From positions 22,459-86,458 of the forward strand of contig NZ_JAEFCA010000004.1 of NCBI RefSeq assembly GCF_016405855.1: a stretch of DNA of 64,000 bases, written 5' to 3'. Below, piece after piece: positions 13,084 to 40,904 of this stretch. Under the pieces are notes generated by a model. The model saw only the letters and a program-made list of their open reading frames with translations. It was not told the origin of the DNA and did no database searches. The DNA is from Flavobacterium sp. IB48 (GTDB taxonomy: Bacteria; Bacteroidota; Bacteroidia; Flavobacteriales; Flavobacteriaceae). Each line of letters opens with the position of its first letter. Positions within the stretch are counted from its first letter, which is position 1. Both the position numbers and the translations under genes were made by a program.

Positions 13084-13108
13084 CTATTAAAGACATAAAG
13101 AAATTATA

Positions 13109-14029: not shown

Positions 14030-14100
14030 TTCTTTAAACAACAAAAATAAAACTACGTAGCAACCTAATAAACAAAACAATTACACTAAATCTAAAAACT

Positions 14101-17469: not shown

Positions 17470-17488
17470 AAAATAAAAAACAATTAAA

Positions 17489-23673: not shown

Positions 23674-23700
23674 TTGTAGTATAGTACAGAATAGTACTAA
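23674..23700 (+). promoter_or_regulatory. GntR-type operator candidate 1
   Basis: TTGTAGTATAG followed by TACAGAATAGTACTAA. It contains the dyad TAGTAC-AGAATA-GTACTA (23683-23700) and shares TTGTAGTATAG with sites 2 and 4. A weak -7 box TATTTTTC lies at 23660-23667. Confidence 0.6.
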
Positions 23701-23726
23701 ATCTTACTAACTAATATTGAAAAACT

Positions 23727-26408
23727 ATGCAAGAAAAAATTACAAAAGAAAAAGTATCGGTTAAAAAACTACTGACTTTAATGCTATTTTTATTAACGAT
23801 TTGCAGTTGGAGTCAGAGTTACGAATTTGAAAATGGTACCCGCACTGGAAATGCTGACATTCAAAACTGCGATTCCTGTTCAGGAAAAATTGTCGGTAAT
23901 TTAGGAGGTACTGGTAGCGTTTCTGTAAATGTTACTGTAGCAGCAACGGGTTGGTACAATCTGCAATTGTTTTATTGTACGGGAGATCCACGTGCGATTC
24001 GATTAACAGCTGGTTCTGCCGCGGCGATTGCGATTCCTTGCGAACCGAGTGGAGGATGGAGTACAGCTGCTTCTAAAAACATAAACGTTTATTTGAACAG
24101 CGGCACAACAACTTTGCTTTGGGATAATACCAACTCATGGGCTCCTAATCTCGACAAATTTATTTTAACACCTTTAGCAGCAGGAACTAACCAAACTATT
24201 GCTTTTGGAACAAATAATAGTATCGTTTATAATTTAACCAATAAAACGTATAGCATAAAATTTAATGGTGCGACTGTAATTAGCAATGCATCTGCTTATG
24301 CAAATAGCGATCAGCAGTATGTGAGTACTAATTTTGCTTCAGCGGTTTATAGTTCAGAATCATTTACCGATAATGTGGGAAGCGGAACTAAGCACATTTT
24401 TACTTTAAGTGGAAATTATTCGCTCGGAATGCAGCAGATTTTTTATACCTATACCAATAAAAATTATCTGGCTGTACAAGTTGTGCTGACAGGAAATGGT
24501 TCAAACTGCTATAAAATGTCTCCTTTAACCAGTAATCAGGTAACGCCAAATTTTGGAACAGGAGATACTAGAGCTGTATTTGTTCCTTACGATAACGATG
24601 CCTGGATTCGATATAATGCCTATACTTTAAATTCGGCTGATTTTACAGCATCTGAGGTAACTAATATTTATAATAATACTAATCGTAAAGGTTTGGTAAT
24701 TGGTTCGTTGGAGCATACAAAATGGAAAACAGGTGTTACAGTAAGTGGCGGCGGTTCTTCATCAGCTTATGTTTCGGTAATTGCAGGTTGGACAAAACAA
24801 GATGTAACCCGAGATGCAAGAGGACATGGTTGGGTAAATGTGGGGCAGACAAGTTGCCCTTCTCCAAAAGTAATGATTAATGCTACAGACGATTGGAGAA
24901 CAGGATTCGAAGAATTTGCACAAGCAAATGCAGCAATGCAACCTAAATATATTTTTGACTGGACAGCGCCAAAACCAATTGGATGGAACAGCTGGGGAGC
25001 TATGCAAACCAATATTAACTTGACGAAAGCAAAAGCAGTTGTAGATTTTTTTCATAATGATTGTCCTGCATTTAAAACTCAAGACAATGCTTTATATATT
25101 GATCTTGATTCTTATTGGGACAATATGAGTGATGCTGAGCTAGCTCAATTTGTCACTTATGCAAAAAGTAAAGGTTATAAGGCTGGAATTTATTGGGCTC
25201 CTTTTGTAGATTGGGGAAAATACAATCGTCAGGTTGAAGGAAGTTCATATACTTATAATCAGTGTTGGACAAAAGTTAACGGAAATCCTTTAGAGTTGGA
25301 TGGAGCTTATGCTATGGATCCGACAAGTCCAGGAACTAAGGCTAGAATTCACTATTTTATAAATCGTTTCAAAACCGCGGGATTCGAAATGATAAAAATT
25401 GACTTCTTAACGCATGCGAGTATTGAAGCTGACAGTTTTGCAAATAATCAGCTTCATACGGGTATGGAAGCGTATCAGGAAGGAATGAAATATTTGATTG
25501 ATGAAATTGGCGGAACGATGTTAGTGCAAGCCGCAATATCTCCTAATTTGGCTACTGGCCCTTTTGCGCACGTAAGACGTATAGCATGCGATGCCTACAC
25601 AAACATAAACGAAACAGATTATACTTTGAATAGTACAACTTATGGCTGGTGGCAAAATCAAATTTACGATTATATAGATGCAGATCATATTGTTTTTGGG
25701 ACTGCTTCAATAGGGCAAAATCGTGCAAGATTATTAAGCAGCGTGGTTACAGGAACAGTAATTGCAGGTGATGATTTTTCTGTTGCGGGTCAGTGGAAAA
25801 CAACTGCACAAAGTCTTTTGCAAAATAATGATGTAATGAATGTTGCTCGTAACGAGATGCATTTTATTCCTGCCGATGGAAACACAGGATACAATGCCGC
25901 AAATGTATTTTCTGCAACATACAACAACGTTACTTATGTAGCTGTTTTTAATTACGGAAATACAACGATGACAAATAATATCAGTTTTAGTCGTCTAGGG
26001 CTTGGATCAGGAAACTATACAGTCAAAGAGCTTTATTCTGGAGCGACAAGTACCGCTCAAAGCACATTGAATGTTCAATTGCCTCAAGCAGATGCGGCTA
26101 TTTATGCTATTTCGAACGCAGGAGTGCTAAGTGCGCCAAGTTACAATTGGCCAACTGCTTCTACAAATTATGTCTTTCCTAATCCTGCATCAAACAGTTT
26201 CAGAATTAAGTTTGATCAAGTAATTAATGGTACAGCGACAATTTCATTATATGATATAAGCGGAAAAGAAGTTTGGAAGAATGCTATTACTGCCGAAGAC
26301 ATGATTAGTTCAGAAATACCAGTAAACGGACTTTCAAAGGGTGTTTATATGGTAAAAGTAAAAGCGACTGGACATCCGGTGCAAAACTTTAAGTTTGTTA
26401 AGAATTAA
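23727..26408 (+). CDS. Secreted clan GH-D glycosidase (alpha-galactosidase-like) with CBM and T9SS sorting tail
   Basis: 893 residues. Signal peptide (LLTLMLFLLTICSWSQS); CBM35/CBM6-like domain (about 33-150, YEFENGTRTGNAD ... LLWDNTNSW); a beta region; then a (beta/alpha)8 domain of GH27/GH36 type with GWNSWGAM, ALYIDLDSYWDN and candidate nucleophile D559 in MIKIDFLTHAS. The last ~80 residues are a Por-type secretion tail (YVFPNPASNSFRIKF to ...VQNFKFVKN), so it should be exported by type IX secretion to the cell surface. The next gene encodes a shorter paralogue. The usual GH27 KYDNC motif is absent, so family placement within the clan is open. Confidence 0.82.
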   Translation: MQEKITKEKVSVKKLLTLMLFLLTICSWSQSYEFENGTRTGNADIQNCDSCSGKIVGNLGGTGSVSVNVTVAATGWYNLQLFYCTGDPRAIRLTAGSAAAIAIPCEPSGGWSTAASKNINVYLNSGTTTLLWDNTNSWAPNLDKFILTPLAAGTNQTIAFGTNNSIVYNLTNKTYSIKFNGATVISNASAYANSDQQYVSTNFASAVYSSESFTDNVGSGTKHIFTLSGNYSLGMQQIFYTYTNKNYLAVQVVLTGNGSNCYKMSPLTSNQVTPNFGTGDTRAVFVPYDNDAWIRYNAYTLNSADFTASEVTNIYNNTNRKGLVIGSLEHTKWKTGVTVSGGGSSSAYVSVIAGWTKQDVTRDARGHGWVNVGQTSCPSPKVMINATDDWRTGFEEFAQANAAMQPKYIFDWTAPKPIGWNSWGAMQTNINLTKAKAVVDFFHNDCPAFKTQDNALYIDLDSYWDNMSDAELAQFVTYAKSKGYKAGIYWAPFVDWGKYNRQVEGSSYTYNQCWTKVNGNPLELDGAYAMDPTSPGTKARIHYFINRFKTAGFEMIKIDFLTHASIEADSFANNQLHTGMEAYQEGMKYLIDEIGGTMLVQAAISPNLATGPFAHVRRIACDAYTNINETDYTLNSTTYGWWQNQIYDYIDADHIVFGTASIGQNRARLLSSVVTGTVIAGDDFSVAGQWKTTAQSLLQNNDVMNVARNEMHFIPADGNTGYNAANVFSATYNNVTYVAVFNYGNTTMTNNISFSRLGLGSGNYTVKELYSGATSTAQSTLNVQLPQADAAIYAISNAGVLSAPSYNWPTASTNYVFPNPASNSFRIKFDQVINGTATISLYDISGKEVWKNAITAEDMISSEIPVNGLSKGVYMVKVKATGHPVQNFKFVKN

Positions 26409-26426
26409 AGACTTTTAAAACTTTCA

Positions 26427-26467
26427 AAAATCCCGATTTTCACTTTAGTTGAGAATCGGGATTTTTT
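26427..26467 (+). terminator. Terminator between the two GH-D genes
   Basis: AAAATCCCGATT (26427-26438) pairs with AATCGGGATTTT, followed by more T. The rest of the 341-bp gap is AT-rich and contains the next promoter. Confidence 0.8.
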
Positions 26468-26683
26468 GTTTTGGCTAGAATGTTAAAATGATAATTTTTG
26501 ATTTATAAAATTTTTTGAGATGTATATTTTTAGTTAGATTTTTGAGATTATGTCATAATTATTGTCAAAATGACTATTTTGAAGAAAAAAAATAAAGCTC
26601 TTTTGTAATTGTGTTAAATGTTGATTTTTAGGTAATTATGTTTGTTTGGGCAAAAAAAGTAAGCAGTATTTTTTGCAATGTTC

Positions 26684-26732
26684 TTGCAGGGTAAATTTTA
26701 ATTCGTATCATTGTAGTATAGAATAGTATAAT
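26684..26732 (+). promoter_or_regulatory. Promoter with GntR-type operator candidate 2
   Basis: TTG (26684-26686), 19 nt, TATCATTG (26706-26713, one mismatch to TAnnTTTG). The motif TTGTAGTATAGAATAGTATA (26711-26730) overlaps this box, the position expected for a repressor. Confidence 0.65.
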
Positions 26733-26749
26733 AACCAAAAATAAAATTA

Positions 26750-28801
26750 ATGAAACCACATTGTTTATTAATAAAAAAGCTGTTTTTGTCTGGGATAATA
26801 ATGCTTTTTTTTAGTCCATTTATGCAGGCTCAAAAAAGCATAAAAATGACTTTTGGAAAAAATGGCAACATTACTTATGATGTTAAAAACAAAACAATAG
26901 CAGTAAGCCAATCTGGTAAAAATATTTTTTCTGGAGCAAAAGCTTCGGTTGTTGTTAATGGTAAAACAATTTCTATTAGTGATTATCCTGAAGCGGTTTT
27001 ATCAAAAGAAGCTTTTACAGATAATTTAGGAAAAGGGACAAAGTATATTCTAACTTATAAGGATAAAAACAATCCAACTTTAATTCAAAATTTCTTTACC
27101 TATAATAATCAATCTTATTTTATAACTCAAATTGAAATTTTAGGAAACGAGAAGCAAATAGCAACCAATTATATTGCGCCATTAGATTTAGGAAAAATTA
27201 CTTTTGATAAAGTAGAAAACTTGCAAACTGTTTTTGTTCCTTATGATAATGATGCTTGGGCGAGTTATAATTCTAAAAAATTAGATACAATTTCAAATAA
27301 TACAAGTGCAGAAGTTGGAATAGTATTTAATAACACTTCTAGAAATGGTTTTATAGTAGGTTCTTTAGAACATACCGTTTGGAAAAGTGCTGTAAAATCA
27401 ATCAACAAAAATAAAGAGCCTTTATTCTCGGCTTGGGCAGGTTTTTCTGAAAAAGAAATAACGCGAGACAGCATTGCGCACGGTTTGGTAAGAGGAAACA
27501 AAGTATTGTCGCCAAAATTCTTTGTTGGATATTATTCCGATTGGAGAAACGGAATGGAAGAATATGCTAAAACCAATCGTATTGTAGAAAAACCATATGT
27601 TTTTGAATGGGATAAGCCAACTCCAGTGGGATGGAACAGCTGGGGCGTTTTGATGGAAAAAATCAATTATGAGAATACGACCAAAGTTGCTGATTTTTTT
27701 GCGAATCAAATTCCGCAGTTTCGAGTAGGAAACACAGCTTATATCGATCTTGATTCATTTTGGGATAATATGGTAAAAGGCGGTTTTACAGGAGATTTCA
27801 GCAAACTAAAAGAATTTGCAGATTACTGTAAAAATAAAGGATTAGAACCGGGAGCCTATTGGGCACCTTTTACAGATTGGGGCTGGAAAGACGGACCAAA
27901 CCGTAAAGCAGAAGGAAGCGATTATACTTTTGGCGAAATGTGGACAAAAACTGGAAATACTTATTTTGATTTTGATGGCGCACGCGCAATTGATCCAACA
28001 CATCCTGGTACGCTAAAACGTGTTGATTATGTAATTAATAAACTAAAAGCGTGCGGCTTCAAAATGATCAAAATCGACTTTCTAGGACATGCAGCGGCTG
28101 AATCTTCTTCTTTTTATGATAAAAATGTCACAACAGGAATGCAGGCTTACAAAGTAGGAATGGAGCATTTGGTAAATGCACTAGACGGACAAATGCTTAT
28201 TTATGCCGCAATTTCTCCAAATATGGCAACCTCTCGTTATGCTCATATAAGACGTATTGCATGCGATGCTTGGAAAACTATCGAGCAGACTCAATATACT
28301 CTGAATAGCGTGAATTACGGCTGGTGGCAAACCTATTCGTATGATTATATTGATGCCGATCATGTTGTTTTTGCTGATGTTACAGAGGGAGAAAACCGTG
28401 CAAGATTAATTTCTGCAATAATCACAGGAACATTAATCACAGGAGACGATTACAGTAAGGAAGGAATTTGGAGCAAACGCGCCAAAGAGTGGCTTCAGAA
28501 TAAAGAGTTGCTTAAGATAGTGGCTCATGGCGTGGCTTTTCGACCAGTAGAAGGAAATACAGGAAAAGATACAACTGAAGTTTTTCAGCAGAAAATAGAA
28601 AACGATTGGTATATCGCTGTTTTCAATTATGGAAACGAAGCAAAAAGCTATGCTTTACCATTGGAGAGATTAGATATTCAAAAAGGAAGTTATCAAATCG
28701 AAGATCTTTTTACTTCTCAAAAGAGCGAAATAAAAGACAATACTTTAAATGTAAATCTTGGTTCAAAAGATGCTCATTTGTATAAAATCATAAAACGATA
28801 A
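26750..28801 (+). CDS. Clan GH-D glycosidase (alpha-galactosidase-like), periplasmic paralogue
   Basis: 683 residues with a signal peptide (IIMLFFSPFMQAQ) but neither the CBM nor the T9SS tail of the 893-residue paralogue; the remaining parts align throughout (GWNSWGVL, TAYIDLDSFWDN, candidate nucleophile D443 in MIKIDFLGHAA, ISPNMATSRYAHIRRIACDA). Without a sorting tail it most likely stays in the periplasm. First of three genes in close series with the esterase (10 nt) and GH36 (18 nt). Confidence 0.82.
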   Translation: MKPHCLLIKKLFLSGIIMLFFSPFMQAQKSIKMTFGKNGNITYDVKNKTIAVSQSGKNIFSGAKASVVVNGKTISISDYPEAVLSKEAFTDNLGKGTKYILTYKDKNNPTLIQNFFTYNNQSYFITQIEILGNEKQIATNYIAPLDLGKITFDKVENLQTVFVPYDNDAWASYNSKKLDTISNNTSAEVGIVFNNTSRNGFIVGSLEHTVWKSAVKSINKNKEPLFSAWAGFSEKEITRDSIAHGLVRGNKVLSPKFFVGYYSDWRNGMEEYAKTNRIVEKPYVFEWDKPTPVGWNSWGVLMEKINYENTTKVADFFANQIPQFRVGNTAYIDLDSFWDNMVKGGFTGDFSKLKEFADYCKNKGLEPGAYWAPFTDWGWKDGPNRKAEGSDYTFGEMWTKTGNTYFDFDGARAIDPTHPGTLKRVDYVINKLKACGFKMIKIDFLGHAAAESSSFYDKNVTTGMQAYKVGMEHLVNALDGQMLIYAAISPNMATSRYAHIRRIACDAWKTIEQTQYTLNSVNYGWWQTYSYDYIDADHVVFADVTEGENRARLISAIITGTLITGDDYSKEGIWSKRAKEWLQNKELLKIVAHGVAFRPVEGNTGKDTTEVFQQKIENDWYIAVFNYGNEAKSYALPLERLDIQKGSYQIEDLFTSQKSEIKDNTLNVNLGSKDAHLYKIIKR

Positions 28802-28811
28802 TAGATTCAGC

Positions 28812-30776
28812 ATGAAAAAATATCTTTTAAAAAATATTCTGTTAGCTGTAATAGGACTGGTTTCGGTTGCAGCAAATGCTACAGTAAAGTTGCCTTCTTT
28901 TTTTACTGATAATATGGTTTTGCAGCAAAAAAGCACCGTTCCGTTTTGGGGAGAAAGCAATCAGCAATCAGTATCAGTTACAAGTTCTTGGGATAAAAAA
29001 ACATATAAAGCTGCCGTTGTAAATGGTAAGTGGAATGTAGTTTTAAAAACGCCTGCTTACGGCGGACCTTATACGCTTGCAATAAATGACGGAGAAGTAA
29101 AAACGCTTCAAAATATTCTAATTGGAGAAGTGTGGTTGTGTTCTGGACAAAGCAACATGGAAATGCCGCTTGAAGGCTGGGGAAAAATAGAGAATTATAA
29201 AGAAGAAATTGCAAACGCCAATTATCCTGAGATTCGATTATTGCAAGCAGAACATATAGAAAGCACTTTGCAATTAAATATACTAAAAGTGCAACACAAT
29301 GGATGGAATGTCTGCGATTCTAAAACTATAGCAGATTTTAGTGCAACAGCTTATTTTTTTGCTAGGAAAATTTATAAAGAAAAAAAAATTCCGATCGGAT
29401 TAATCCATTCTTCTTGGGGAGGAACATTGATAGAAGCTTGGACAAGTTCTGGAGCGTTAAGCACCATTCATGATTTTGATGCTCAGATAGAAGCGATGAA
29501 ATCTGAATCAAGCAGAGAAACTTTAGAGAAAAAATACAATGCTGATTTAGCGGTTTGGGAAAAACATCTAGCTAATGCTGACAAAGGATATCAGAACGAA
29601 AAAGCAATCTGGGCTTCAGTTGGTTTTGACGATGCTTCATGGAAAACAATGAAGGTTCCTTCTTTTTTTGACAGCAACGGATTAGGAAATTTTGACGGTA
29701 TAGTTTGGTTCAGAAAAAAGGTTGCCATCGCAGATAATAGTAAAGATTTTACTCTAAGCTATTTTGCCGATGATGATGATATGATTTGGGTAAATGGAAA
29801 TTATATTGGAGAAACAAAAGGATATAACGTAGAGCGTCATTATACCATTCCATCAAAATATTTGAAAAAAGGAGAAAACGTAATTATCATTAGAGTATAT
29901 GACGGAGCAGGAAATGGAGGTATTTATGGAGAAGAAAATATCGCTTTAAAATCAGATAAAGAAATTATTTCCTTAGCAGGAGATTGGAAATACAATATAG
30001 GTGCAGACAGTAAAGATTTGCCTGCACGACCTTATCTGGCTCAGGGGCAAAATAGGCCAAGTGCAATATACAATGCCATGATTGCTCCTTTGGCAGATTA
30101 CAAAATAAAAGGAGTAATCTGGTATCAGGGAGAAAGCAATGCAGAAAGAGCTTTTCAATATCAAAAATTATTTCCGCTGCTTATAAACGACTGGCGAACT
30201 CAGTTTAAAGATAAAAATCTTCCGTTTTTCTTTGTGCAGTTAGCCAATTACAAACAGCAGAAACAAGAACCTGGAGATTCGGATTGGGCAGAATTAAGAG
30301 AGGCACAGTTCATGGCTTTAAAACTGCAAAACACAGGAATGGCAGTAACCACTGATATTGGAAATGGAGAAGATATTCACCCAAAAAATAAACAAGATGT
30401 AGGAGGTCGTCTCGCTAATATTGCTTTAGCAAAAGTGTATAATGCCAAAATCGATTATTCGGGACCGCTTTATAAATCGTTTAAAATTGAAAACAATACA
30501 ATTGTGTTAGATTTTGATTTTAACACTGAAATTAAAGCTAAAGAAGGTATGCTGAAAGGATTTTCTATTGCGGGAGCAGATCAGAAATTTTATTGGGCAG
30601 AAGCAAAAATAGTAAACGGAAAAGTGATCGTATATGCGCAGAACGTTCCAAATCCTGCAGCGGTTCGATACAACTGGGCAGATAATCCAGACGGAAATCT
30701 GACAAATGCATCAGGTCTTCCTGCGTCATCATTTAGAACAGATAATTGGAAAGGAATTACACAAGAAAAGAAGTAA
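28812..30776 (+). CDS. Sialate O-acetylesterase-like SGNH carbohydrate esterase
   Basis: 654 residues, signal peptide (ILLAVIGLVSVAANA). The catalytic Ser is S114 in CSGQSNMEMPL; block III-like GVIWYQGESNAE and the His region near GEDIHPKNK complete the family pattern. A jelly-roll domain (about residues 265-385, VWFRKKVAI ... WVNGNYIGETKGYN) interrupts the hydrolase, as in longer members. Should remove acetyl groups from sugars before the exo-glycosidases act. Between the GH-D and GH36 genes in one operon. Confidence 0.87.
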   Translation: MKKYLLKNILLAVIGLVSVAANATVKLPSFFTDNMVLQQKSTVPFWGESNQQSVSVTSSWDKKTYKAAVVNGKWNVVLKTPAYGGPYTLAINDGEVKTLQNILIGEVWLCSGQSNMEMPLEGWGKIENYKEEIANANYPEIRLLQAEHIESTLQLNILKVQHNGWNVCDSKTIADFSATAYFFARKIYKEKKIPIGLIHSSWGGTLIEAWTSSGALSTIHDFDAQIEAMKSESSRETLEKKYNADLAVWEKHLANADKGYQNEKAIWASVGFDDASWKTMKVPSFFDSNGLGNFDGIVWFRKKVAIADNSKDFTLSYFADDDDMIWVNGNYIGETKGYNVERHYTIPSKYLKKGENVIIIRVYDGAGNGGIYGEENIALKSDKEIISLAGDWKYNIGADSKDLPARPYLAQGQNRPSAIYNAMIAPLADYKIKGVIWYQGESNAERAFQYQKLFPLLINDWRTQFKDKNLPFFFVQLANYKQQKQEPGDSDWAELREAQFMALKLQNTGMAVTTDIGNGEDIHPKNKQDVGGRLANIALAKVYNAKIDYSGPLYKSFKIENNTIVLDFDFNTEIKAKEGMLKGFSIAGADQKFYWAEAKIVNGKVIVYAQNVPNPAAVRYNWADNPDGNLTNASGLPASSFRTDNWKGITQEKK

Positions 30777-30794
30777 AAAATAATACATAATAAA

Positions 30795-32999
30795 ATGAAA
30801 AAACAAAGTATCAATTTAAGGCAGTCTTTTGCGATAGCATTTTTTATTCTCACGAGTTATTGCAGTTCAATAACAGCACAAGAAATTATAGCTGTAAAAA
30901 CAAAATCAAATGCATTGGTTTTACAGGTAAATAAAGGCAAAGAAGTAAGTACTATTTATTTAGGAGAAAAATTGGCAAACGATTCAGATTATGCCAAAAT
31001 ACAAAGTCAGTTTCGTCAAGGAACCGATTATTCAGGTATTTATAATGCCACTTATACTGCTTCTGGATCTAAAAATTTATTAGAACCAGCTATTACCGTA
31101 ACTCATGCTGACGGAAACACTTCGTTAGATTTGTTATATGTAAGCCATAAAACCAACACGGTTAGTACAGGAGTTTCTCAAACCGAAATCACTTTAAAAG
31201 ATCCAGTATATCCTGTTGAGGTTCATTTGTTTATTCAGGCGTATTACGATACTGATGTTATTGAGCAATGGACAACCATTCAGCATAACGAAAAAGGAAG
31301 TATTACTTTAAACAAATATGCTTCGGCTAACTTATATTTAAAAGGATACAACAATTTCTATTTAAACCAATATCATGGTGAATGGGCCAAAGAAATGCAA
31401 TCTGAGGAGGCTAAAATTACTCACGGAATTAAAACTTTGGATACTAAATTAGGCTCACGTACCAATTTATTTCAGCCTTCAGTATTTATGGTTTCTTTGG
31501 ACAAACCAGCTTCAGAAGACGAAGGGAAAGTTTTATTTGCAGGTTTGGAATGGTCAGGAAACTTTAGAACTGATTTAGAACTAGATCCGTTGAATAACCT
31601 TCGAGTAATCTCTGGAATTAATAATGCAGCGGCTGCTTACAAACTGGCTAAAAGCGAAGTTTTTACAACACCTAAATTCTGGTACACTTTATCATCTAAA
31701 GGAAAAGGACACGCAAGCCGTAATCTGCACGATTGGTCAAGAAACTATAAAATCTTGGACGGAAAAGGAGATCGTTTGACATTGTTAAACAACTGGGAAG
31801 CAACCTATTTTAATTTTGATGAAGATAAACTGAAAGTCTTAATTGCTGACAGTAAAAAATTGGGCGTAGATATGTTCTTGTTAGATGACGGATGGTTTGG
31901 AAACACTTATCCGCGTAGCAATGACGATGCGGCTTTAGGAGATTGGGAAGTTAACAAAAAGAAATTGCCAAACGGAATTGGAACTTTAGTTAAAACAGCC
32001 AAAGACAATCAGGTAAAATTCGGAATCTGGATTGAGCCAGAAATGGTAAGTCCGGCAAGTGATTTGTACAAAAAACACCCAGAATGGATTGTAAAACAGC
32101 CAGGAAGAGCAGAACATTATTTCCGTAATCAGTTGGTTTTAGATTTGTCTAATCCAAAAGTTCAAGATTTTGTTTATGGAGTTGTAGACAATCTTTTTAC
32201 CGAAAATCCAGAATTGGCTTATATTAAATGGGACTGTAATGCTGTAATTTATAATGCATATTCTAGTTATTTAAAAGATAAACAAAACAACTTTTATACA
32301 GATTATGTAAACGGACTTTATAAAGTATTGGAGCGTATTCGTGTAAAATATCCAACAATACCAATGATGCTTTGTTCTGGTGGTGGAGGAAGAGTAGATT
32401 ACGGAGCTTTGAAATATTTTACAGAATTCTGGCCAAGTGACAATACAGATCCTTTAGAGCGTGTGTACATGCAGTATGAGTACTCTTATTTTTATCCTGC
32501 TTTAACAATTGCAGCGCACGTTACAGACTGGGGAAAACAGCCTTTAAAATACCGTACAGATGTTGCGATGATGGGAAGATTAGGTTTTGATATTGTGGTG
32601 AAAGAATTAAACGATAAAGACTTAACTTTTACACAACAGGCTATCAAAAATTACCATGCATTAAGCAATACTATTTGGCATGGTGACCAATATCGTTTAC
32701 AAGATCCGTACGGAAATGATGCTGCGTCTGTAATGTTTGTCAATAAAAATGGAAATGAAGGAGTGGTTTTCAGCTATTCTGTTAATTCAAGATATGAAGC
32801 AGGAACACATCTTCCAATAAAATTAAAAGGATTGCAAGCAAATCAAAATTATAAAATAGAAGAAATCAACGTATATCCAGATAAAAAACCAGTAGTAGAA
32901 ACAGCGGTTTATTCTGGCGATTTCTTAATGCAAGTGGGAATCAATCCAAATGTTACGCCATCAAACAGCAGCGTGGTTTTAAAAATTACTAAAGCTTAA
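30795..32999 (+). CDS. GH36 alpha-galactosidase
   Basis: 734 residues with a signal peptide (AIAFFILTSYCSSITAQ). N-terminal beta-supersandwich, then the GH36 barrel: LLDDGWFG, FGIWIEPEMVSP, nucleophile D480 in YIKWDCN and acid/base D549 in PSDNTDPLE. These are canonical for GH36 enzymes that release terminal alpha-galactose from raffinose-type or galactomannan side chains. Full family length. Last gene of the series GH-D, esterase, GH36. Confidence 0.93.
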   Translation: MKKQSINLRQSFAIAFFILTSYCSSITAQEIIAVKTKSNALVLQVNKGKEVSTIYLGEKLANDSDYAKIQSQFRQGTDYSGIYNATYTASGSKNLLEPAITVTHADGNTSLDLLYVSHKTNTVSTGVSQTEITLKDPVYPVEVHLFIQAYYDTDVIEQWTTIQHNEKGSITLNKYASANLYLKGYNNFYLNQYHGEWAKEMQSEEAKITHGIKTLDTKLGSRTNLFQPSVFMVSLDKPASEDEGKVLFAGLEWSGNFRTDLELDPLNNLRVISGINNAAAAYKLAKSEVFTTPKFWYTLSSKGKGHASRNLHDWSRNYKILDGKGDRLTLLNNWEATYFNFDEDKLKVLIADSKKLGVDMFLLDDGWFGNTYPRSNDDAALGDWEVNKKKLPNGIGTLVKTAKDNQVKFGIWIEPEMVSPASDLYKKHPEWIVKQPGRAEHYFRNQLVLDLSNPKVQDFVYGVVDNLFTENPELAYIKWDCNAVIYNAYSSYLKDKQNNFYTDYVNGLYKVLERIRVKYPTIPMMLCSGGGGRVDYGALKYFTEFWPSDNTDPLERVYMQYEYSYFYPALTIAAHVTDWGKQPLKYRTDVAMMGRLGFDIVVKELNDKDLTFTQQAIKNYHALSNTIWHGDQYRLQDPYGNDAASVMFVNKNGNEGVVFSYSVNSRYEAGTHLPIKLKGLQANQNYKIEEINVYPDKKPVVETAVYSGDFLMQVGINPNVTPSNSSVVLKITKA

Positions 33000-33013
33000 C
33001 TAAATTATAAACA

Positions 33014-33037
33014 TTAGTATATATTTGTAATACTATA
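33014..33037 (+). promoter_or_regulatory. GntR gene promoter with operator dyad (candidate 3)
   Basis: TAGTAT (33015-33020) and ATACTA (33030-33035) are inverted around a perfect -7 box TATATTTG (33020-33027). A regulator bound here would occlude its own promoter. Confidence 0.65.
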
Positions 33038-33068
33038 TTTTCTAAATAAATACCTATTAAAACGTTTT

Positions 33069-34085
33069 ATGAAGCAAATTATTCAGCAGATCAAAAATCT
33101 TGAATCTATTAATTCCTTATCTAAACATGAGCAATTGGTTCAGGGGATAATTAATGCCATTGATGAAAAGGTAGTCACAAAAGGCGATTTGCTTCCGTCT
33201 GTAAATACTTTTATAAGCGAACTGGGTTTTGCAAGAGAAACCATTGCAAAAGCTTATAAAGAACTTGTTCACAGAGGAATAATCGAATCCAAAAATAGAT
33301 TGGGTTACTTTGTTGCCACTAATGATGTAAAGCAGGAGTTGAAAGTTGCATTATTGATCTTTGCATTTGATATTTTTCAGGAAACGTTTTATGAGAATTT
33401 TAGAAAAGGGCTTGGAAAGAATGTGCAATTGGATATTTTTTTCCATCACAATAATTTTAGCACATTCGAAAACATTGTTCAGAATATAAAAGGAAAATAC
33501 GGAATGTTTGTTATTGCTCCGATTCCTAGCAAAAAAACGCCAGATGTCTTAAAACAACTTCCAACAAACAGAGTGTTATTGGTAGACCGTTTTATAGAAA
33601 CAGATGAAGATTATAATTATGTTGCACAAGAGTTTGGAGATTCGTCTTACAATGCTTTTGTGCAGCTTAAAGATAAAATTAAAAAATACGACGAATTAGT
33701 TTTCTTCTTTAAACCGTCGTCTGCAGAACCTAATGAAATTTTAAATTCCTTCAAAAGATTCATGAAAGATTATGATATCAAAGGAGTTATAAAAGAGGAG
33801 TATACGGCTGGTTCTCTAGAAAAAGGAAAAGTGTACTTTACCATTCATAATCTCGAACTTTGGGAAATGTTGAAAGACTCAAAAATCAAAGGTTTGAAAA
33901 TTGGTAAAGACATTGGGTTTATCTCACACAATGATGATATTGTAAAAGAGATTATTTTTGATGGTGTCACAACATTTTCTACTGATTTCGCAGAAATGGG
34001 AAAAAAAGCAGCCGATTTTGTTTTAAACAGAAAAAAAACTCAGGAAATCATTCCAACAATTCTTATAGATAGAAATTCGTTGTAA
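33069..34085 (+). CDS. GntR-family regulator with LacI-type sugar-sensing domain
   Basis: 338 residues. N-terminal winged helix of GntR type (about 15-80, GDLLPSVNTFISELGFARET, HRGIIESKNRLGYFVA) followed by a periplasmic-binding-protein-like sensor (about 95-335, VALLIFAFDIFQETFYENFR, GFISHNDDIVKEIIFDGVTT). Such regulators in Flavobacteriia control sugar loci and release DNA upon binding a sugar. The symporter gene starts 3 nt downstream. TAGTATA sites at its own and three nearby promoters are its likely targets. Confidence 0.88.
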   Translation: MKQIIQQIKNLESINSLSKHEQLVQGIINAIDEKVVTKGDLLPSVNTFISELGFARETIAKAYKELVHRGIIESKNRLGYFVATNDVKQELKVALLIFAFDIFQETFYENFRKGLGKNVQLDIFFHHNNFSTFENIVQNIKGKYGMFVIAPIPSKKTPDVLKQLPTNRVLLVDRFIETDEDYNYVAQEFGDSSYNAFVQLKDKIKKYDELVFFFKPSSAEPNEILNSFKRFMKDYDIKGVIKEEYTAGSLEKGKVYFTIHNLELWEMLKDSKIKGLKIGKDIGFISHNDDIVKEIIFDGVTTFSTDFAEMGKKAADFVLNRKKTQEIIPTILIDRNSL

Positions 34086-34088
34086 TTT

Positions 34089-35681
34089 ATGAACGTTTCA
34101 TCCATTGTTAGTTTTTTACTAATAACAGGTTTAGTTGCCGTAATTTCAGCATTAAAAACTCGGAAAAAAAAGGTTCAGACAACAGATGGACTTTTTTTTG
34201 CCGATCGTAACAATAATTTTTTTATCGTTGGAGGAGCCTTACTATTGAGCAATATCAGTGCTAATCAGTTTATAGGCGAAAACGAATCTATTTACAATAA
34301 TAATATGAGCGTGATAGCATGGGGCGTAAGTTCTGTGCTAGCCATGCTTTTGGTTGCTGAGTTCTTCCTGCCAATTTATTTCCGTACTGGAGCCATGACC
34401 ATTCCAGATTATCTAGGAAAACGTTACGATCATTCTACTAAAAGACTAGTTTCGATAATATTTCTCTGCAGTTATGTGGTCAATTTGCTTCCTGCTGTTT
34501 TATATGGAGGCGCAGTTGCCTTAACCGGAATGTTTAATTTTTTACAACCTTTAGGATTAACCTATTGGCAGAACATTTGGTTTATGGTTTGGGTAATCGG
34601 ACTTACAGGATGTGCTTATTCTGTTTTAGGCGGTTTGCGCGCCATATCAATTAGTGACACGGTTTTAAGTATCGGATTGCTGACAATTGGAATTGCTTTT
34701 CCGTATTTTGGATTCAAATATTTAGGGAACGGAGATTGGTTTAAAGGTCTCAATATTCTGCTTTCAGAACACAAAGAACATTTAAATTCTATTGGCGGAT
34801 CTCAAGATGAGATTCCGCTTAATACCATTTTTACAGGAATGTTTATCATGAATCTGTACTATTGGGGAATGGAACAATTTATTGTGCAGCAAGCGCTTTC
34901 GGCCAAAAGTTTATCGCATAGTCAAAAAGGTATGGGATTGGCTTGTTTAGGAAAGTTGCTTTGCCCTTTCATTATTAATATTCCTGGTTTAGTTGGAGTT
35001 CATCTTTACGATAAATTAGAAAATACAGCAGAAGTTTTTCCGCTAGTAATAAAAGATACATTGCCAGGAGTAATGATTGGTTTAACTGCCGCTGTAGTTT
35101 TGGGTGCTGCAATTAGTACTTTTAATGCGGGACTTAATAGCAGTAGTACATTATTTGTGCTTAACCTCTATAAACCGTGGTTGGAGAAAAGAAACAAAGA
35201 AGTAACAGAAAGGCATCTGGTTTACACTGGACGCAAGTTTGAGATTATTGTCTCGGCTCTAGCAATGTTTTCAGCTCCATTTATCATTTTTAGCAAGGCA
35301 GGTTTTTATACCTATTTGCAGCAATTAGGAGGCATGTTTTGTGTGCCAATTTTTACCATTATTCTAGTAGGTTTTGTATTTAAAAAAGTACCGCCTCAAG
35401 CAGCAAAAATTGGGATGATATTTTTTATTCTTAGCTATATTATTTTTAATTACCTTCTAGATATTCAACTGCATTATCTGCATATGTTAGCTTTGCTATT
35501 TGTGCTTACTTCTGTATGTATGTTGGTGGTTTCTAAATTTTATCCTAGTTACAGTTATGCTGAAATTAAACTGGAATCGGTTGAATTAACTCCTTGGAAG
35601 AATCGATATTGGTATTTCGCCCTTTTATTGATTGGTATGCTGAGTATCTTTATATTATTTTCAAAATGGGGAGTCGCATAG
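34089..35681 (+). CDS. Sodium/sugar symporter (SSS family, SglT-like)
   Basis: 530 residues with about 14 transmembrane helices. Characteristic stretches: LLLSNISANQFIGENESIYN near residue 55, TGCAYSVLGGLRAISISDTV, and the ISTFNAGLNSSSTLF segment near 350. It resembles sodium/glucose cotransporters, so it should carry the monosaccharide freed by the periplasmic glycosidases into the cytoplasm. Translationally linked to the GntR gene. Confidence 0.88.
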   Translation: MNVSSIVSFLLITGLVAVISALKTRKKKVQTTDGLFFADRNNNFFIVGGALLLSNISANQFIGENESIYNNNMSVIAWGVSSVLAMLLVAEFFLPIYFRTGAMTIPDYLGKRYDHSTKRLVSIIFLCSYVVNLLPAVLYGGAVALTGMFNFLQPLGLTYWQNIWFMVWVIGLTGCAYSVLGGLRAISISDTVLSIGLLTIGIAFPYFGFKYLGNGDWFKGLNILLSEHKEHLNSIGGSQDEIPLNTIFTGMFIMNLYYWGMEQFIVQQALSAKSLSHSQKGMGLACLGKLLCPFIINIPGLVGVHLYDKLENTAEVFPLVIKDTLPGVMIGLTAAVVLGAAISTFNAGLNSSSTLFVLNLYKPWLEKRNKEVTERHLVYTGRKFEIIVSALAMFSAPFIIFSKAGFYTYLQQLGGMFCVPIFTIILVGFVFKKVPPQAAKIGMIFFILSYIIFNYLLDIQLHYLHMLALLFVLTSVCMLVVSKFYPSYSYAEIKLESVELTPWKNRYWYFALLLIGMLSIFILFSKWGVA

Positions 35682-35732
35682 TTCTAAAATTCTAAGAATC
35701 AGAGAAATTAAGATTTAAAACTTTTTGATAGA

Positions 35733-35756
35733 GATGCACTATAGTGCATCTTTTTT
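35733..35756 (+). terminator. Terminator after the symporter gene
   Basis: GATGCACTATAGTGCATC (35733-35750) is a perfect palindrome followed by TTTTTT. The remainder of the 447-bp gap is AT-rich, with the susC promoter at its right end and no supported gene. Confidence 0.85.
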
Positions 35757-35983
35757 GTTTCACTTAAGAAGTAAAATCTTGTTTTTTTTTGAAAATTAAG
35801 TTTGCTAGACTAGGAATTAAATTCATACGATTTTCCTTGTTTTAAGCATAATACTTCTAATGTTTTGTCTGATATTTCTTTAAAACGATTCGCTATCTAT
35901 TCTGTTTTTCGTTTTTATTCCTGTGTATTTGTATTAAAGACGAAATAAATCACTGAAAAAAATAGCAAATTCTTAAACATAAA

Positions 35984-36040
35984 TTTGGATGTAATAAAAA
36001 TATTTGTATGTTTGTAATGTTGTAGTATAGTATAGTATAA
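35984..36040 (+). promoter_or_regulatory. susC promoter with GntR-type operator candidate 4
   Basis: TTTG (35984-35987), 19 nt, TATGTTTG (36007-36014): a full Bacteroidota promoter. TTGTAGTATAG starts at 36020 and is extended by two more TAGTA units to 36040, placing it across the expected transcription start, a typical repressor position. An 89-nt leader follows. Confidence 0.7.
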
Positions 36041-36128: not shown

Positions 36129-39100
36129 ATGAGAATTGCAATAAGATACTTATGCTTCTTAGTAGTTATGCTTTCTGCCGGTACAGTTTATTCCCAAACC
36201 ATAACCGGTAAAGTTACAGATAATGAAAACTTACCTTTGCCTGGAGCAACCATTCTGGTAAAAGGTACTAAGATTTCTACAGCTACAGACATTGATGGTA
36301 GTTACAAATTAACAAACGTAAAATCTGGCTCCACACTAGAATTTAGTTTCATCGGATTTGATTCAAAGACTGCAACAGCAAGTAAATCTGAAATTAATAT
36401 TTCTTTGACTCCAAGTACACAAGAACTGACTGAAGTTGTAATCGTGGGGGCCAAAATGAAAAAAGGAGATTTAACAGGAGCTGTAAGTAGTGTTTCTGGT
36501 GACAAGCTTCGAGAGGTTCCTACGCCAAACGTAGTGCAAGCACTTCAAGGGCGTAGTTCTGGTGTATATGTGCAACAAAGTGCTGTTCCTGGTCAAGCAG
36601 GTTCAATTAGAATTAGGGGGAATAATTCTCTAAACTTTGGAGGTAACCCAATATTTGTAATTGATGGTTTGATTACCGATAGCAATTTTGAAAACATTAA
36701 CCCTGACGATATTGCGAGTATGGAAATTCTTAAAGATGCTTCTGCTACCGCATTATATGGTTCAAGAGCGGCTAATGGAGTAATCGTAATTACAACCAAA
36801 AAAGGTTCAAGAACAGGAGAAGCAAAAATACAGTATGATAGCTGGACAGGTGTATCTGAATTTGCAAGAACTATCCCTTTGATGAATGGCCAGCAGTTAT
36901 TTGATCTAAGAGTTGATGCTTATGCAAATCGCTATATGGATGAACATCCAGGGGCTGATCGTGCTGCTTATATCAATCAAATTAAATCAGATGGTTCTAC
37001 AGTATTTGCGCCTTATGAATTGGAATCTTATAGAACTGGTAAAAGTTACAATTGGTTAGACCAAGTAACGCGTTCAGGCTTTCAAACTAACCATAATTTA
37101 AGCTTTAGCGGAGGAGGAGAGAAAGGAACTTATTTTGTAAGCTTTAATTATGTTGACCAAGAGGGACTTCTTAAAAACTCTGATTTTAAAAGATATAACG
37201 GAAAAATTAACCTTACGCAAGATTTAAAATCATGGTTGCAGTTCGGTACCAATACTACTTTTTCAAGAAGTGAAACTAACTATCAAGAAGGAAGCGCTTT
37301 TGGAGTGGCATTGGGAGCAAATCCATTATTGCCTATAGATCCTAAGGCTACTTATCTTAGATATGGTGAAGTATTTGACCAAAATCTTTATAATCCGATA
37401 AAAAGTCTTGATATCATAAATTCAAGTACACGTAATAGACTTACAAGCAGTAATTTTTTAAGCCTAAAACCAGTAAAAGGACTTGATATCAGAACTACTC
37501 TTTCTATAGACGTTACAGATCAGGCAAACTTTGATTATGTGCCAAGTTATACAGGGCAGTCGCTTAGAAACTCTATGAACGGAGAAGCGCATCATTACAG
37601 ATATTCACAATTTAATTACCAATGGGATAATACCGCAACTTATAGCAGAGTCTTTGCTGAAAAGCATGATGTAAGTTTAATGGGAGGATTCTCTGTGATG
37701 AGCAACTCAGATAATTCAACCGATGTTAGAGCTCGCGGATTTGTTAGTGATGATTTGACCTATATGGCTTTATCTGGTGCTTATCAAAAAGATAATGCGC
37801 AGTTGGGTTCAAAATTTACAAATTATTCAAACCAATCGTATTTCGCTAGATTGAACTATACTTTTGATGGAAAGTATAATATTACAGGTACAATAAGAAG
37901 AGATGGTTCTTCTAAATTCGGTCCTAACAACAAATGGGGAACCTTTCCTTCAGTAGCAGGAAGTTGGGATATTGCTAAAGAAAATTTCCTTCAAGGATTT
38001 GAAAAATTAAGCCAGCTTAAGTTTCGTGTAGGATATGGTATGGTTGGTAATCAGAATGTGGATCCTTACAGATATTTTGCCTTGTATAATGCACAAGTGA
38101 GCAACAATTCTGGGACTTATGTGTCTGACAACTATATTGATAATTTTGATTTAAGATGGGAAAAACAAAAACAATTTAATATTGGGTTAGATGCTGGTTT
38201 CTTCCAAAACAGACTGACTGCAAGTGCTAACTATTTCCATATAAATAATGACGACCTTTTAATGATTCGCAATATGCCAGTTTCATCTGGATATAAATAC
38301 AAGCTGGATAATATTGGTGCTACTACTAATCAGGGTTTCGAATTAGAGCTTAGCGGCGACATTATTAAAAACAAAGATTTAAGATGGAATGTTTCTGCTA
38401 ACATATCATCAGCAAAAAATAAGGTTACAAAACTTTATGGAGATGCTACAGAGATATACAATTTAGGTGGTTATAGCAACAATGAGATCCAACGTACAGG
38501 AAACTTTTTCTTAGGCCAATCAGTAAACACAGTTTATGTATTTCAATATGATGGTATAGCACAACAAGGAGAAGACCTTAGCAAAGTAAATTACGGAAGC
38601 CGAACTGTTCAGCCTGGAGATATTAAAATTAAAGATCGTAATGGAGACGGTGTAATAAACGATCAGGACAGATATGTGGTTGGTGATTTAAATCCTGATT
38701 ATTATGGTGGTTTTTCTACAGATGTTAATTACAAAGGTTTTGGATTAAATGCCGTATTTGCTTATTCAATAGGAGGTAAGAGACCAAGCGGAACTTACGA
38801 AAGTTACATGAACTCAGGAGGAATGAGTGCAGCACACACAGATCTTTTGGATCGTTGGACTCCTACTAATACTAATACAGATGTGCCAAGAGCTTATTAT
38901 GGAGGAGGAAGATATACTTTAGGCGAAACAGATAAGGCAATTCAAGACGCTTCATTCTTAAGATTAAATGCACTTACATTATCGTATACATTAAAAGATA
39001 AAGTTGCAGAAAGTGTTTTTCTTAGAAACGCAAGATTTTATCTAACAGGATCTAATTTATTTATCATTACTAAGTATAAAGGCTATGATCCTGAAGGAGG

Positions 39101-39155
39101 AGATTCTTATCCAATGTCTAGAATGATAGTTATGGGATTAAATGTAACTCTTTAA
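36129..39155 (+). CDS. SusC-like TonB-dependent receptor of the glycan locus
   Basis: 1008 residues. Signal peptide (FLVVMLSAGTVYSQ), carboxypeptidase-D-like domain (about 22-100, GKVTDNENLPLPGATILVKG), TonB-box region EVVIVGAKMKKG, plug (VVQALQGRSSGVYVQQ) and barrel, ending RMIVMGLNVTL. No STN domain, so it is not of the FecR-signalling type, consistent with control by the GntR regulator instead. The susD gene follows after 26 nt. Confidence 0.95.
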   Translation: MRIAIRYLCFLVVMLSAGTVYSQTITGKVTDNENLPLPGATILVKGTKISTATDIDGSYKLTNVKSGSTLEFSFIGFDSKTATASKSEINISLTPSTQELTEVVIVGAKMKKGDLTGAVSSVSGDKLREVPTPNVVQALQGRSSGVYVQQSAVPGQAGSIRIRGNNSLNFGGNPIFVIDGLITDSNFENINPDDIASMEILKDASATALYGSRAANGVIVITTKKGSRTGEAKIQYDSWTGVSEFARTIPLMNGQQLFDLRVDAYANRYMDEHPGADRAAYINQIKSDGSTVFAPYELESYRTGKSYNWLDQVTRSGFQTNHNLSFSGGGEKGTYFVSFNYVDQEGLLKNSDFKRYNGKINLTQDLKSWLQFGTNTTFSRSETNYQEGSAFGVALGANPLLPIDPKATYLRYGEVFDQNLYNPIKSLDIINSSTRNRLTSSNFLSLKPVKGLDIRTTLSIDVTDQANFDYVPSYTGQSLRNSMNGEAHHYRYSQFNYQWDNTATYSRVFAEKHDVSLMGGFSVMSNSDNSTDVRARGFVSDDLTYMALSGAYQKDNAQLGSKFTNYSNQSYFARLNYTFDGKYNITGTIRRDGSSKFGPNNKWGTFPSVAGSWDIAKENFLQGFEKLSQLKFRVGYGMVGNQNVDPYRYFALYNAQVSNNSGTYVSDNYIDNFDLRWEKQKQFNIGLDAGFFQNRLTASANYFHINNDDLLMIRNMPVSSGYKYKLDNIGATTNQGFELELSGDIIKNKDLRWNVSANISSAKNKVTKLYGDATEIYNLGGYSNNEIQRTGNFFLGQSVNTVYVFQYDGIAQQGEDLSKVNYGSRTVQPGDIKIKDRNGDGVINDQDRYVVGDLNPDYYGGFSTDVNYKGFGLNAVFAYSIGGKRPSGTYESYMNSGGMSAAHTDLLDRWTPTNTNTDVPRAYYGGGRYTLGETDKAIQDASFLRLNALTLSYTLKDKVAESVFLRNARFYLTGSNLFIITKYKGYDPEGGDSYPMSRMIVMGLNVTL

Positions 39156-39181: not shown

Positions 39182-40714
39182 ATGAAAGCAAAAATTATAG
39201 CCTTTATGGCTCTAGCTATATTATCAGGATCCTGCTCTTCAGATTTTTTGGATGAAGACCCTAAAAGTTCACTTACTGCTGCCCAAGCTTATGGCAGTTT
39301 AGGAAAAATAGAACCTGTTCTATTAGGAGCTATAACGAATTGGAGAAATATGCAAAAAGACCGTGCTGGTCTTTATACTTCTCTTGGTACAGACGAAGCG
39401 CAACAAGGAGCTTTGCAGGTAACTGGAGATGCAAACCAAGCAGGACTTGATTTGTACAATGGTTTTTTAAGCCAGGAGAATCAGGCAATTGGGCAATTAT
39501 GGAATGACAGATGGCCAGTAATTGAAGTAGCGGCACAATCTATTAGAGCATTAGGAATCAATACTGAAGAAGATAGCGCAAAACGTGACCTTTTAATGGG
39601 GGAAGCTAGTTTTTTAAGAGCTACATTAATGTTTGAGCTTACACAATATTGGGGAGAAATACCAATTAACGATAAAGCAAAATCGGCAGAATTTGGCTTA
39701 AAACGTCAGCCTCTACCTTTGGTGTATTCTTATATAGTTGCCGATTTGGAAAGAGCAGTTGAAAAACTTCCTGCAACACAGAGCAATCCTGCATTTCCTG
39801 CAAAAGGAGTGGCTCAAGCACTATTAGGGAAAGTATATCTATATGCTCCACAAGCGTCAGGATACCGTGATTATGCCAAAGCAAAACAATGGTTTGAAGA
39901 AGTTATTAAATCTGGAAAATACAGTTTATTGCCTAATTATGCAGATGTTTTTAGCCCAGATCATGCTAACTCTCCAGAATCTTTATACGAATGGCAGTAT
40001 ACTAATAACTGGCCAGATAACAACCAAATACAATGGCAGACAGGCTCAAGAGTTTTGGCTAACATGGATCAGTACGCTTATTTTGGTGGTTATGACTTAA
40101 TTCTTCCTACTCAATATTGCTATAAAGATAAAACTGATGGAGGAATATGGGAAGCAGGTGATATGCGTAAAGCGGCGAGCATTCGTTATGACTTTACCTA
40201 TAAAGGAGTTGTGCCAACACTTCCAGCTGGTTTTGGTGGTGATGAGTTGGATCCGCACATTAAAAAATACGAAGATATTCGTGTAGATGGAAAACAATCG
40301 TTTTGGAATTCAGGAAAAAACAAACCATATATCAGATACTCTGACGTATTACTTAGCTACGCAGAATGTTTAAATGAATTAGGAAACACAACAGAAGCCG
40401 AAGGATATGTAAATCAGGTTCGTACAAGAGCTTTTGGAGGAACATTGCCTGATGCTATGAAATGGAGTGGACTTTCTCAAACGCAATTTAGAGTTCAAAT
40501 TTTGGATGAACGTATGCGTGAATTAGCTTTTGAAGGTTGGAGAAGAATGGATCTTATTCGTACAGGAAAATTGGTAGAATTAGTAGGTGCTCGCAACAAA
40601 TGGGCTAAACAAAACGGTACAATTGCTGAATTTCACAACCGTTATCCTATTCCGATTGGAGAGATCAAGCTTAATGATGAAATTGGTCCAGAGGATCAAA
40701 ATCCTGGTTATTAA
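39182..40714 (+). CDS. SusD-like lipoprotein of the glycan locus
   Basis: 510 residues; lipoprotein signal (MALAILSGSCSS, Cys18). SusD core (GEASFLRATLMFELTQYWGE) and RagB C-terminal region (RMRELAFEGWRRMDLIRTGK, NRYPIPIGEIKLND, ending EDQNPGY). Partner of the SusC just upstream for capture of oligosaccharides at the surface. Confidence 0.95.
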   Translation: MKAKIIAFMALAILSGSCSSDFLDEDPKSSLTAAQAYGSLGKIEPVLLGAITNWRNMQKDRAGLYTSLGTDEAQQGALQVTGDANQAGLDLYNGFLSQENQAIGQLWNDRWPVIEVAAQSIRALGINTEEDSAKRDLLMGEASFLRATLMFELTQYWGEIPINDKAKSAEFGLKRQPLPLVYSYIVADLERAVEKLPATQSNPAFPAKGVAQALLGKVYLYAPQASGYRDYAKAKQWFEEVIKSGKYSLLPNYADVFSPDHANSPESLYEWQYTNNWPDNNQIQWQTGSRVLANMDQYAYFGGYDLILPTQYCYKDKTDGGIWEAGDMRKAASIRYDFTYKGVVPTLPAGFGGDELDPHIKKYEDIRVDGKQSFWNSGKNKPYIRYSDVLLSYAECLNELGNTTEAEGYVNQVRTRAFGGTLPDAMKWSGLSQTQFRVQILDERMRELAFEGWRRMDLIRTGKLVELVGARNKWAKQNGTIAEFHNRYPIPIGEIKLNDEIGPEDQNPGY

Positions 40715-40790
40715 TATCTAAAAAAACTTTAAATAGTAATTTTTTATTTTTTGGTCATGTGATTTGGTTAATATCACAGTTTTGATTTGT

Positions 40791-40862: not shown

Positions 40863-40904
40863 CCTATTTTAATAAATTACAATTTTATAATCATTCAAAT
40901 AACA

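Follow-up and report, generated by a model that had tools for sequence, protein, structure and literature searches.

Which protein would switch the glycan-use genes of a Flavobacterium island off and on, and which DNA sequence would it read? Pairs of sigma and anti-sigma factors are one described means of controlling SusCD loci. Otherwise such control is described mostly via SusR-like regulators and hybrid two-component systems (PMC3878776). We analysed a stretch of 64,000 nucleotides from Flavobacterium sp. IB48 (NZ_JAEFCA010000004.1; hereafter the window; the genome is 5.6 Mb), in which a susC/susD pair and glycosidase genes form a polysaccharide utilization locus (PUL), as identified by TIGR04056, SusD_RagB and glycoside hydrolase (GH) families. 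The locus also contains gntR, which encodes a regulator of 338 amino acids (aa). A first-pass annotation of the window had proposed a GntR regulon defined by a TAGTATA operator set. Sequence comparisons across the phylum indicate that this regulon and its likely regulator are real, that the operator is of another build, and that the predicted operator code reaches beyond the window. Very probably, the 338-aa protein is a GntR/LacI-type repressor that switches off glycan-use genes from arrays of five-base units (pentads) placed over transcription start sites.

Oriented pentad arrays at three promoters

The 11-mer TTGTAGTATAG was found in exact copies on the forward strand at all three promoters named in the first-pass annotation: those of the genes for an 893-aa glycosidase-like protein (23674–23684), a 683-aa alpha-galactosidase-like protein (26711–26721) and SusC (36020–36030), at 53, 39 and 109 bp from the respective start codons. 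As a bare string the 11-mer is not rare genome-wide, with five exact matches vs six for its reversed control. The window contains 14 copies of the shorter TAGTATA vs 7.3 expected, a count reached by one of 100 shuffles. Three of the five genomic copies of the 11-mer, however, are promoter copies clustered in a single 12-kb island; the remaining two (genome contigs C1 and C34) are both within open frames and were set aside. The tandem pattern YAGNAYAGNAYAGNAY matches the genome solely at the three promoters (four overlapping matches, all on the forward strand; one match in the reversed control). Elsewhere the genome has no run of three such pentads, which meets the concern of the first-pass annotation that the motif might be common at unrelated promoters. 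Instead of a TAGTATA dyad, we predict an operator made of pentads in oriented tandem, with the consensus T[A/G]GNA-TAGWA-TAGNA-YAG (Operators 1–3 in Table 1).

The −7 box consensus of F. psychrophilum, TAnnTTTG, spans −12 to −5 (PMC9723704). With this spacing carried over, the susC array would lie at approximately +5 to +22, and so would the 683-aa array if TTAATTCG is its −7 box; at the position of TTAATTCG, 12 of the 17 aligned Flavobacterium genomes read TTAATTTG or TAATTTG. Inspection of the promoter sequence of Operator 1 revealed no clear −7 box. The motif had been described as overlapping or following the −7 box at 26711 and 36020, and it indeed follows TTAATTCG at the former and a perfect TATGTTTG at the latter, a placement that fits a repressor.

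The first-pass annotation had also noted a TAGTAT/ATACTA dyad enclosing the −7 box of gntR. The dyad is present in the window, but its autoregulatory reading did not hold up, as the full TAGTAT-N9-ATACTA form is kept in just four of the 17 aligned gntR promoters (window included) and missing in 13; on this ground we rejected the dyad as operator. Its left half and the −7 box (TTAGTATATATTTGTA) are invariant across the 17 promoters, the right half is variable, and core and flanks are alike 85 per cent identical. Clear pentad sites are found at gntR promoters in other lineages, namely Chitinophagaceae, Saprospiraceae and some Pedobacter.

Conservation within the genus Flavobacterium

At E ≤ 1e-60, 23 of 398 Flavobacterium genomes contain a GntR match, and in 17 of these the match is 92–100 per cent identical. 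The 17-bp core TAGTATAGWATAGTATA occurs in 18 genomes, which are exactly the 17 with a GntR of at least 92 per cent identity and one further genome, G322; the reversed control matches one genome (G063, 18 times). The G322 match (L081, 1498–1532) was set aside: it consists of a simple TACTA tandem repeat, and G322 yields no GntR match at E ≤ 1e-60. We aligned the promoters of the 683-aa gene and of gntR from 17 genomes, of susC from 16 and of the 893-aa gene in eight rows, the window being counted among the 17 and the eight. In the 683-aa promoter, the 24-bp core has a mean identity of 97 per cent vs 59 per cent in the flanks, and 13 of its 24 bases are invariant. The susC core is invariant at 22 of 24 bases, with flanks at 87 per cent. 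The 893-aa promoter (core 91 per cent vs flanks 70 per cent) retains a NAGNN array in which the fourth base of the pentads is variable.

Pentads beside GntR homologs across Bacteroidota

Close homologs of the regulator are rare beyond the genus: they were found at E ≤ 1e-70 in nine of 395 genomes of the order and at E ≤ 1e-60 in ten of 385 across the phylum, where more distant ones (E ≤ 1e-20) occur in 28 of 198. A protein search of genome contigs yielded 77 named loci with GntR relatives of 31–99 per cent identity. When 59 of them (L112–L170) were scored for four pentads, 100 matches were obtained vs one in reversed sequence, with neighbouring registers counted separately.

The 77 loci contain 138 separate sites, 126 of which lie outside genes with the start of a sense gene within 300 bp. 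The genes downstream of the arrays are susC, gntR itself, genes of the 683-aa and 893-aa types, GH36 and a few others; in L114–L117, for instance, a site stands directly upstream of a GH36 gene. Eight of the other 12 sites are in genes and were taken as chance matches at the score threshold, three have no assigned sense gene (L097, L159 and L165), and one is in L110. In L159 and L165 the site immediately precedes gntR, which has a miscalled start or frame in these loci; the L097 site is antisense to a GH2-type gene and overlaps its start. Only two sites have an antisense gene alone nearby, vs the 126 with a sense gene, and one of the two, L159, is actually upstream of gntR. Since an antisense gene is also near some of the 126 (86 bp away in L167), the direction of a single site in a divergent region is sometimes uncertain. 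Overall, pentads recur beside many, not all, GntR homologs down to approximately 30 per cent identity, almost always in the sense direction. Combining 63 of these 126 sites gives a weight matrix with the reading T[A/G]GNATAGWATAGNAYAG.

The repeat structure was also recovered by an analysis that made no use of pentads, in which 47 susC and 52 gntR upstream regions from outside Flavobacterium were compared with block-of-two shuffles. Upstream of susC, direct repetition peaks at lag 5 (z = 12.4) and lag 10 (z = 11.9), with all other lags at 3.4 or below. The top 8-mers there, TAGCATAG and TAGTATAG, are found in 21 and 20 regions, vs at most 14 in shuffles, and their reverse complements in one and none.

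In F. daejeonense (L110, 12817), the gene 431 bp downstream of a pentad site encodes a GH95 protein, and a search of the fetched stretch of this genome (L058) gave no SusC match. At L169 and L170 (GntR 31–32 per cent identical), sites with a first pentad off the pattern precede an alpha-fucosidase-type gene (L169 protein scanned). At L145, L160 and L161, in Aquimarina and Saprospiraceae, susCD beside gntR is followed by genes for large FG-GAP/UnbV_ASPIC proteins, not glycosidases. In Aquimarina sp. RZ0 (L168, 8620–8650), a TAGTA array is situated upstream of an extracytoplasmic function (ECF) sigma gene, approximately 1.4 kb ahead of a GntR homolog with an altered helix (CANKT).

Regulator and its recognition helix

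The 338-aa protein belongs to the GntR family by its N-terminal PF00392 domain (E = 1.4e-9; 37.9 bits vs a cut-off of 27). In its C-terminal half, Peripla_BP_3 falls below the cut-off (23.0 vs 26.5 bits). An AlphaFold2 model (mean predicted local distance difference test score of 92) combines a winged helix with a LacI/RbsR-type domain, and its best fold matches include RbsR, CcpA, LacI and PurR. According to the model, the C-terminal domain is of the LacI type, as in regulators of the AraR type. In the FadR subfamily, to which NanR belongs, this domain is of the FCD type; the Pfam and fold searches, which give a LacI-type domain, place the 338-aa protein outside that subfamily.

Operator spelling changes together with the recognition helix. 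At aligned loci, the fourth base of the first pentad is not C in 57 of 60 sites of proteins with E57 (mostly ARET) and is C in 23 of 24 sites of proteins with K57 or R57 (mostly ARKT); a single locus with Q57 has C in two of its four sites. A distant clade (36–38 per cent identity, helix SRDT) carries, for example, CAGAA-CAGAA-CGGAA-CAGTA at its own gntR promoter, with GH43 and FGGY-kinase neighbours in both loci scanned. Together with the co-occurrence in the genus and the recurrence across the phylum, this covariation lends good support to the link that the first-pass annotation had drawn between the motif set and GntR.

The genome of strain IB48 encodes at least four GntR/LacI-type paralogs, among the ten of 29 candidates that were scored, and these are accompanied by their own direct repeats, located either at the promoter of the paralog or at the divergent one. 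The paralog at C4:34296–35255 (36 per cent identity) has CAGAA-CGGAA-CAGAA-CGGTA, and that at C11:937966–938961 (34 per cent) has CCAGTACCTACCAGT, a 10-bp direct repeat; both sequences are unique in the genome. AAGGA-TAGTA-CAGGA-CAGTT is found at the promoter divergent from the paralog at C32:393669–394688 (30 per cent).

Weighing alternative readings of the arrays

Several observations weigh against a GntR repressor that reads oriented pentads. All loci from outside the genus were chosen by GntR similarity, and the control with GntR-less PULs covers the genus only and the 17-bp core only. At a threshold of 15.5, seven of the 59 scored loci (L122, L136, L152–L155 and L164) are without a site, with weaker sites at four of the seven: at L152, L154 and L155 directly, and for L164 via L178, whose GntR is identical and whose site scores 15.0. 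Upstream of gntR, the direct-repeat signal is weaker than upstream of susC (lag 5, z = 4.9; lag 10, z = 2.9), and pentad 8-mers are not above shuffles in the 52 regions. The K57 label amounts to three changes on the GntR tree, so that few independent events underlie the covariation, and residue 57 has exceptions in L168 and in the 893-aa-gene sites of three aligned Flavobacterium. Across 39 loci with more distant homologs, we obtained 24 matches vs four in the control, and a number of these loci consequently lack pentads. Finally, the best inverted repeats score slightly above shuffles, out of a maximum of 8, both upstream of susC (7.28 vs 6.98, standard deviation 0.04; first 40 regions, eight shuffles) and upstream of gntR (7.05 vs 6.82, standard deviation 0.09).

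The last observation would suit a GntR protein that reads a conventional inverted repeat within an AT-rich array, the pentads being incidental. Palindromes are what most GntR regulators bind, AraR included (PMC4494728, PMC4218819). The TA steps are self-complementary and TAGTATAGTATAGTA comes close to symmetry around its central G, so that the arrays are pseudo-palindromic apart from this base and a symmetric reading is possible on sequence alone. By eye, TAGTA-N8-TACTA-like pairs can also be seen in some 893-aa-gene and gntR promoters. Such pairs are, however, missing from the 683-aa and susC sites, and the direction of the arrays tracks that of the gene, a polarity seen in the 126 sense vs two antisense-only sites. 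The motif resembles itself more at direct lag 5 (0.95) than around any inverted centre (at most 0.74), although the sites in this comparison were chosen by pentad score; in the pentad-free test, which does not share that choice, direct lags 5 and 10 were again the strongest. We therefore consider an inverted-repeat operator unlikely.

The sense polarity, and the position of most sites at the start of the transcript, would equally be expected if the arrays acted in RNA, with an RNA-binding protein reading a UAG that recurs at five-base intervals near the 5′ end. TRAP, for example, reads (G/U)AG repeats. We rejected a TRAP-like element, and an RNA-level reading of any kind is highly improbable: the genome has no TRAP homolog (PF02081; the B. 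subtilis control was positive), the arrays comprise only three to five units, and their spelling tracks a helix that reads DNA. Moreover, some arrays are probably outside the transcript, since the Niabella gntR-promoter array (L165, L167) is upstream of and overlaps the likely −7 box and the L184/L186 repeats are upstream of TATATTTG. We give next to no credence to recognition by another regulator of the island, such as the AraC-type protein encoded at 53610–54518, since, even though direct repeats suit AraC-type proteins and are described for hybrid two-component systems (PMC3878776), a SusC gene accompanies gntR in 47 of 52 loci from outside Flavobacterium, but other neighbours differ in the ten loci listed, and the promoter of gntR itself bears the array in several lineages.

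Proposed mechanism and comparison with known systems

With oriented pentads as the favoured operator, we infer binding, repression, oligomeric assembly and an effector as follows. The 338-aa protein would be a cytoplasmic, sugar-responsive GntR/LacI-type repressor that binds oriented YAGNA pentads in three to five copies. Its arrays would cover the transcription starts of susCD, of the operon of 683-aa-GH, SASA and GH36 genes, and of the 893-aa-GH gene, and gntR and the symporter gene would probably also be controlled, via the 683-aa operon. By analogy with NanR, two or three dimers would probably sit side by side, each offset by approximately half a helical turn, and the assembled dimers would block RNA polymerase at initiation. 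The repressor would leave the DNA once the pathway has released a sugar, which may be galactose or an alpha-galactoside. The neighbouring genes in the window suggest alpha-galactosides rather than arabinose; because the neighbours of GntR homologs differ among loci (FG-GAP/UnbV, PNGase F, GH130, or GH43 with FGGY kinase), gene context does not point to a single effector sugar.

GntR proteins usually bind palindromes, and the known exceptions that bind direct repeats include NanR, NagQ, FarR and MocR types (PMC4494728, PMC5320631). In Escherichia coli, (GGTATA)3 downstream of the polymerase site is occupied by three NanR dimers, each shifted by approximately half a turn (PMC8012715). Given this precedent, we interpret the pentads as an array with half-turn spacing on which two or three LacI-type dimers would assemble. 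The arrays described here share with the NanR system tandem repeats whose spacing is below half a turn, a location downstream of the polymerase site, a set of three target operons and, as proposed above, a sugar effector (PMC8012715); the direct repetition at lags 5 and 10 and the positions of the −7 boxes put repeats approximately half a turn apart over the promoter start. They differ in that NanR, of the FadR subfamily of the GntR family, reads GGTATA units with spacers, whereas the predicted sites here consist of five-base YAGNA units and the protein has a LacI-type C-terminal half and a role in PUL control in Bacteroidota.

AraR of Bacillus subtilis shares the combination of a GntR winged helix with a GalR/LacI C-terminal domain and a sugar-catabolic role (PMC4494728). 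Its operators are palindromic, At(T/A)tGTaCGTAcaa(A/T)T (PMC4218819), in contrast to the direct pentads here, where inverted similarity is lower. MocR/GabR-type proteins, NagQ and FarR are further cases in which a GntR-type helix reads direct repeats (PMC4494728, PMC5320631), although in MocR the repeats are spaced by two or three helical turns and the C-terminal domain is aminotransferase-like (PMC5320631). FucR and ManR of Bacteroides are comparable in phylum, GntR family and monosaccharide-catabolic role; workflow 2 of the study that describes them looked for palindromic motifs (PMC3878776). We found no description of TAGTA-type operators in the open-licence literature searched, which is not proof of absence.

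More tentatively, and with somewhat less than even confidence, oriented YAGNA arrays may be the general operator type of GntR/LacI-type regulators throughout Bacteroidota, with the spelling of each clade set by the recognition helix, all four paralogs of strain IB48 associated with half-turn or one-turn repeats, and a NanR-like assembly that arose separately on a LacI-type body. Several loci at approximately 28–36 per cent identity (e.g. L188, L195, L197, L200, L201 and L204–L209) have no pentads at the gntR promoter, and L191, L194, L211, L212 and L214–L216 have a 10-bp ACCAGT direct repeat in their place; pentads are therefore unproven for the family as a whole.

What is gained is a predicted operator code for a family of cytoplasmic repressors that would act on PULs of Flavobacterium, Pedobacter, Chitinophaga, Aquimarina and Saprospiraceae relatives; both regulator and operator occur in natural variants. 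Regulons may be read from genomes, and a NanR-like half-turn array becomes testable on a LacI-type body. A motif search built on the assumption that GntR proteins bind palindromes would overlook pentad arrays.

Layout of the island and adjoining features

Only short gaps separate the 683-aa gene from the SASA gene (10 bp), the SASA gene from the GH36 gene (18 bp), the GH36 gene from gntR (69 bp) and gntR from the symporter gene (3 bp). The first three genes probably form one operon, and, given these gaps, gntR may in part be under the control of the operator of the 683-aa gene. Further genes of the island encode GH2-type, GH95 and GH92 proteins, a TPR protein, a sugar transporter, an AraC-type regulator, GalM and GH97. 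The three-pentad pattern is absent from the GH2, GH95, GH92 and galM/GH97 promoters in the genome pattern scan, as the first-pass annotation had observed for all of these but GH2. Its proposal of at least two control units is compatible with this absence, yet these genes may also be reached by read-through from susCD.

Table 1. Predicted operators, promoter elements and genes of the GntR island in the window
Feature	Coordinates	Strand	Description
893-aa gene	23727–26408	+	Secreted, glycosidase-like protein with Melibiase_C domain and type IX secretion system sorting tail
683-aa gene	26750–28801	+	Alpha-galactosidase-like protein with Melibiase_C; solved alpha-galactosidases are a distant sequence match
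SASA gene	28812–30776	+	SASA esterase/GH2-N protein
GH36 gene	30795–32999	+	GH36 alpha-galactosidase
gntR	33069–34085	+	Regulator with winged helix and LacI-type sugar-binding domain, 338 aa
Symporter gene	34089–35681	+	Sodium:solute symporter (PRK10484 family)
susC	36129–39155	+	SusC/RagA TonB-dependent transporter
susD	39182–40714	+	SusD-like lipoprotein
Operator 1 (predicted)	23677–23696	+	TAGTA-TAGTA-CAGAA-TAGTA, upstream of 893-aa gene
Operator 2 (predicted)	26714–26733	+	TAGTA-TAGAA-TAGTA-TAATA, upstream of 683-aa gene
Operator 3 (predicted)	36023–36040	+	TAGTA-TAGTA-TAGTA-TAA, within inferred susC transcript
−7-like box before Operator 2	26698–26705	+	TTAATTCG
susC −7 box	36007–36014	+	TATGTTTG, perfect; array begins eight bases further on
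gntR promoter dyad	33015–33035	+	TAGTAT-N9-ATACTA around −7 box TATATTTG (33020–33027)

The AraC-type regulator at 53610–54518 has a cupin domain, is encoded between the sugar transporter gene and galM/GH97, and is a candidate for the second control unit. A different type of control adjoins the GntR island at 12438–19024, where genes for an ECF sigma factor and a FecR-type anti-sigma factor are followed by a gene of SusC size (judged by size) and a SusD-like gene. Hairpin-like inverted repeats, seen by eye at 40788–40872, 43866–43890 and 46325–46362 between susD, GH2, GH95 and GH92, are possible terminators or processing sites and would then bear on read-through.

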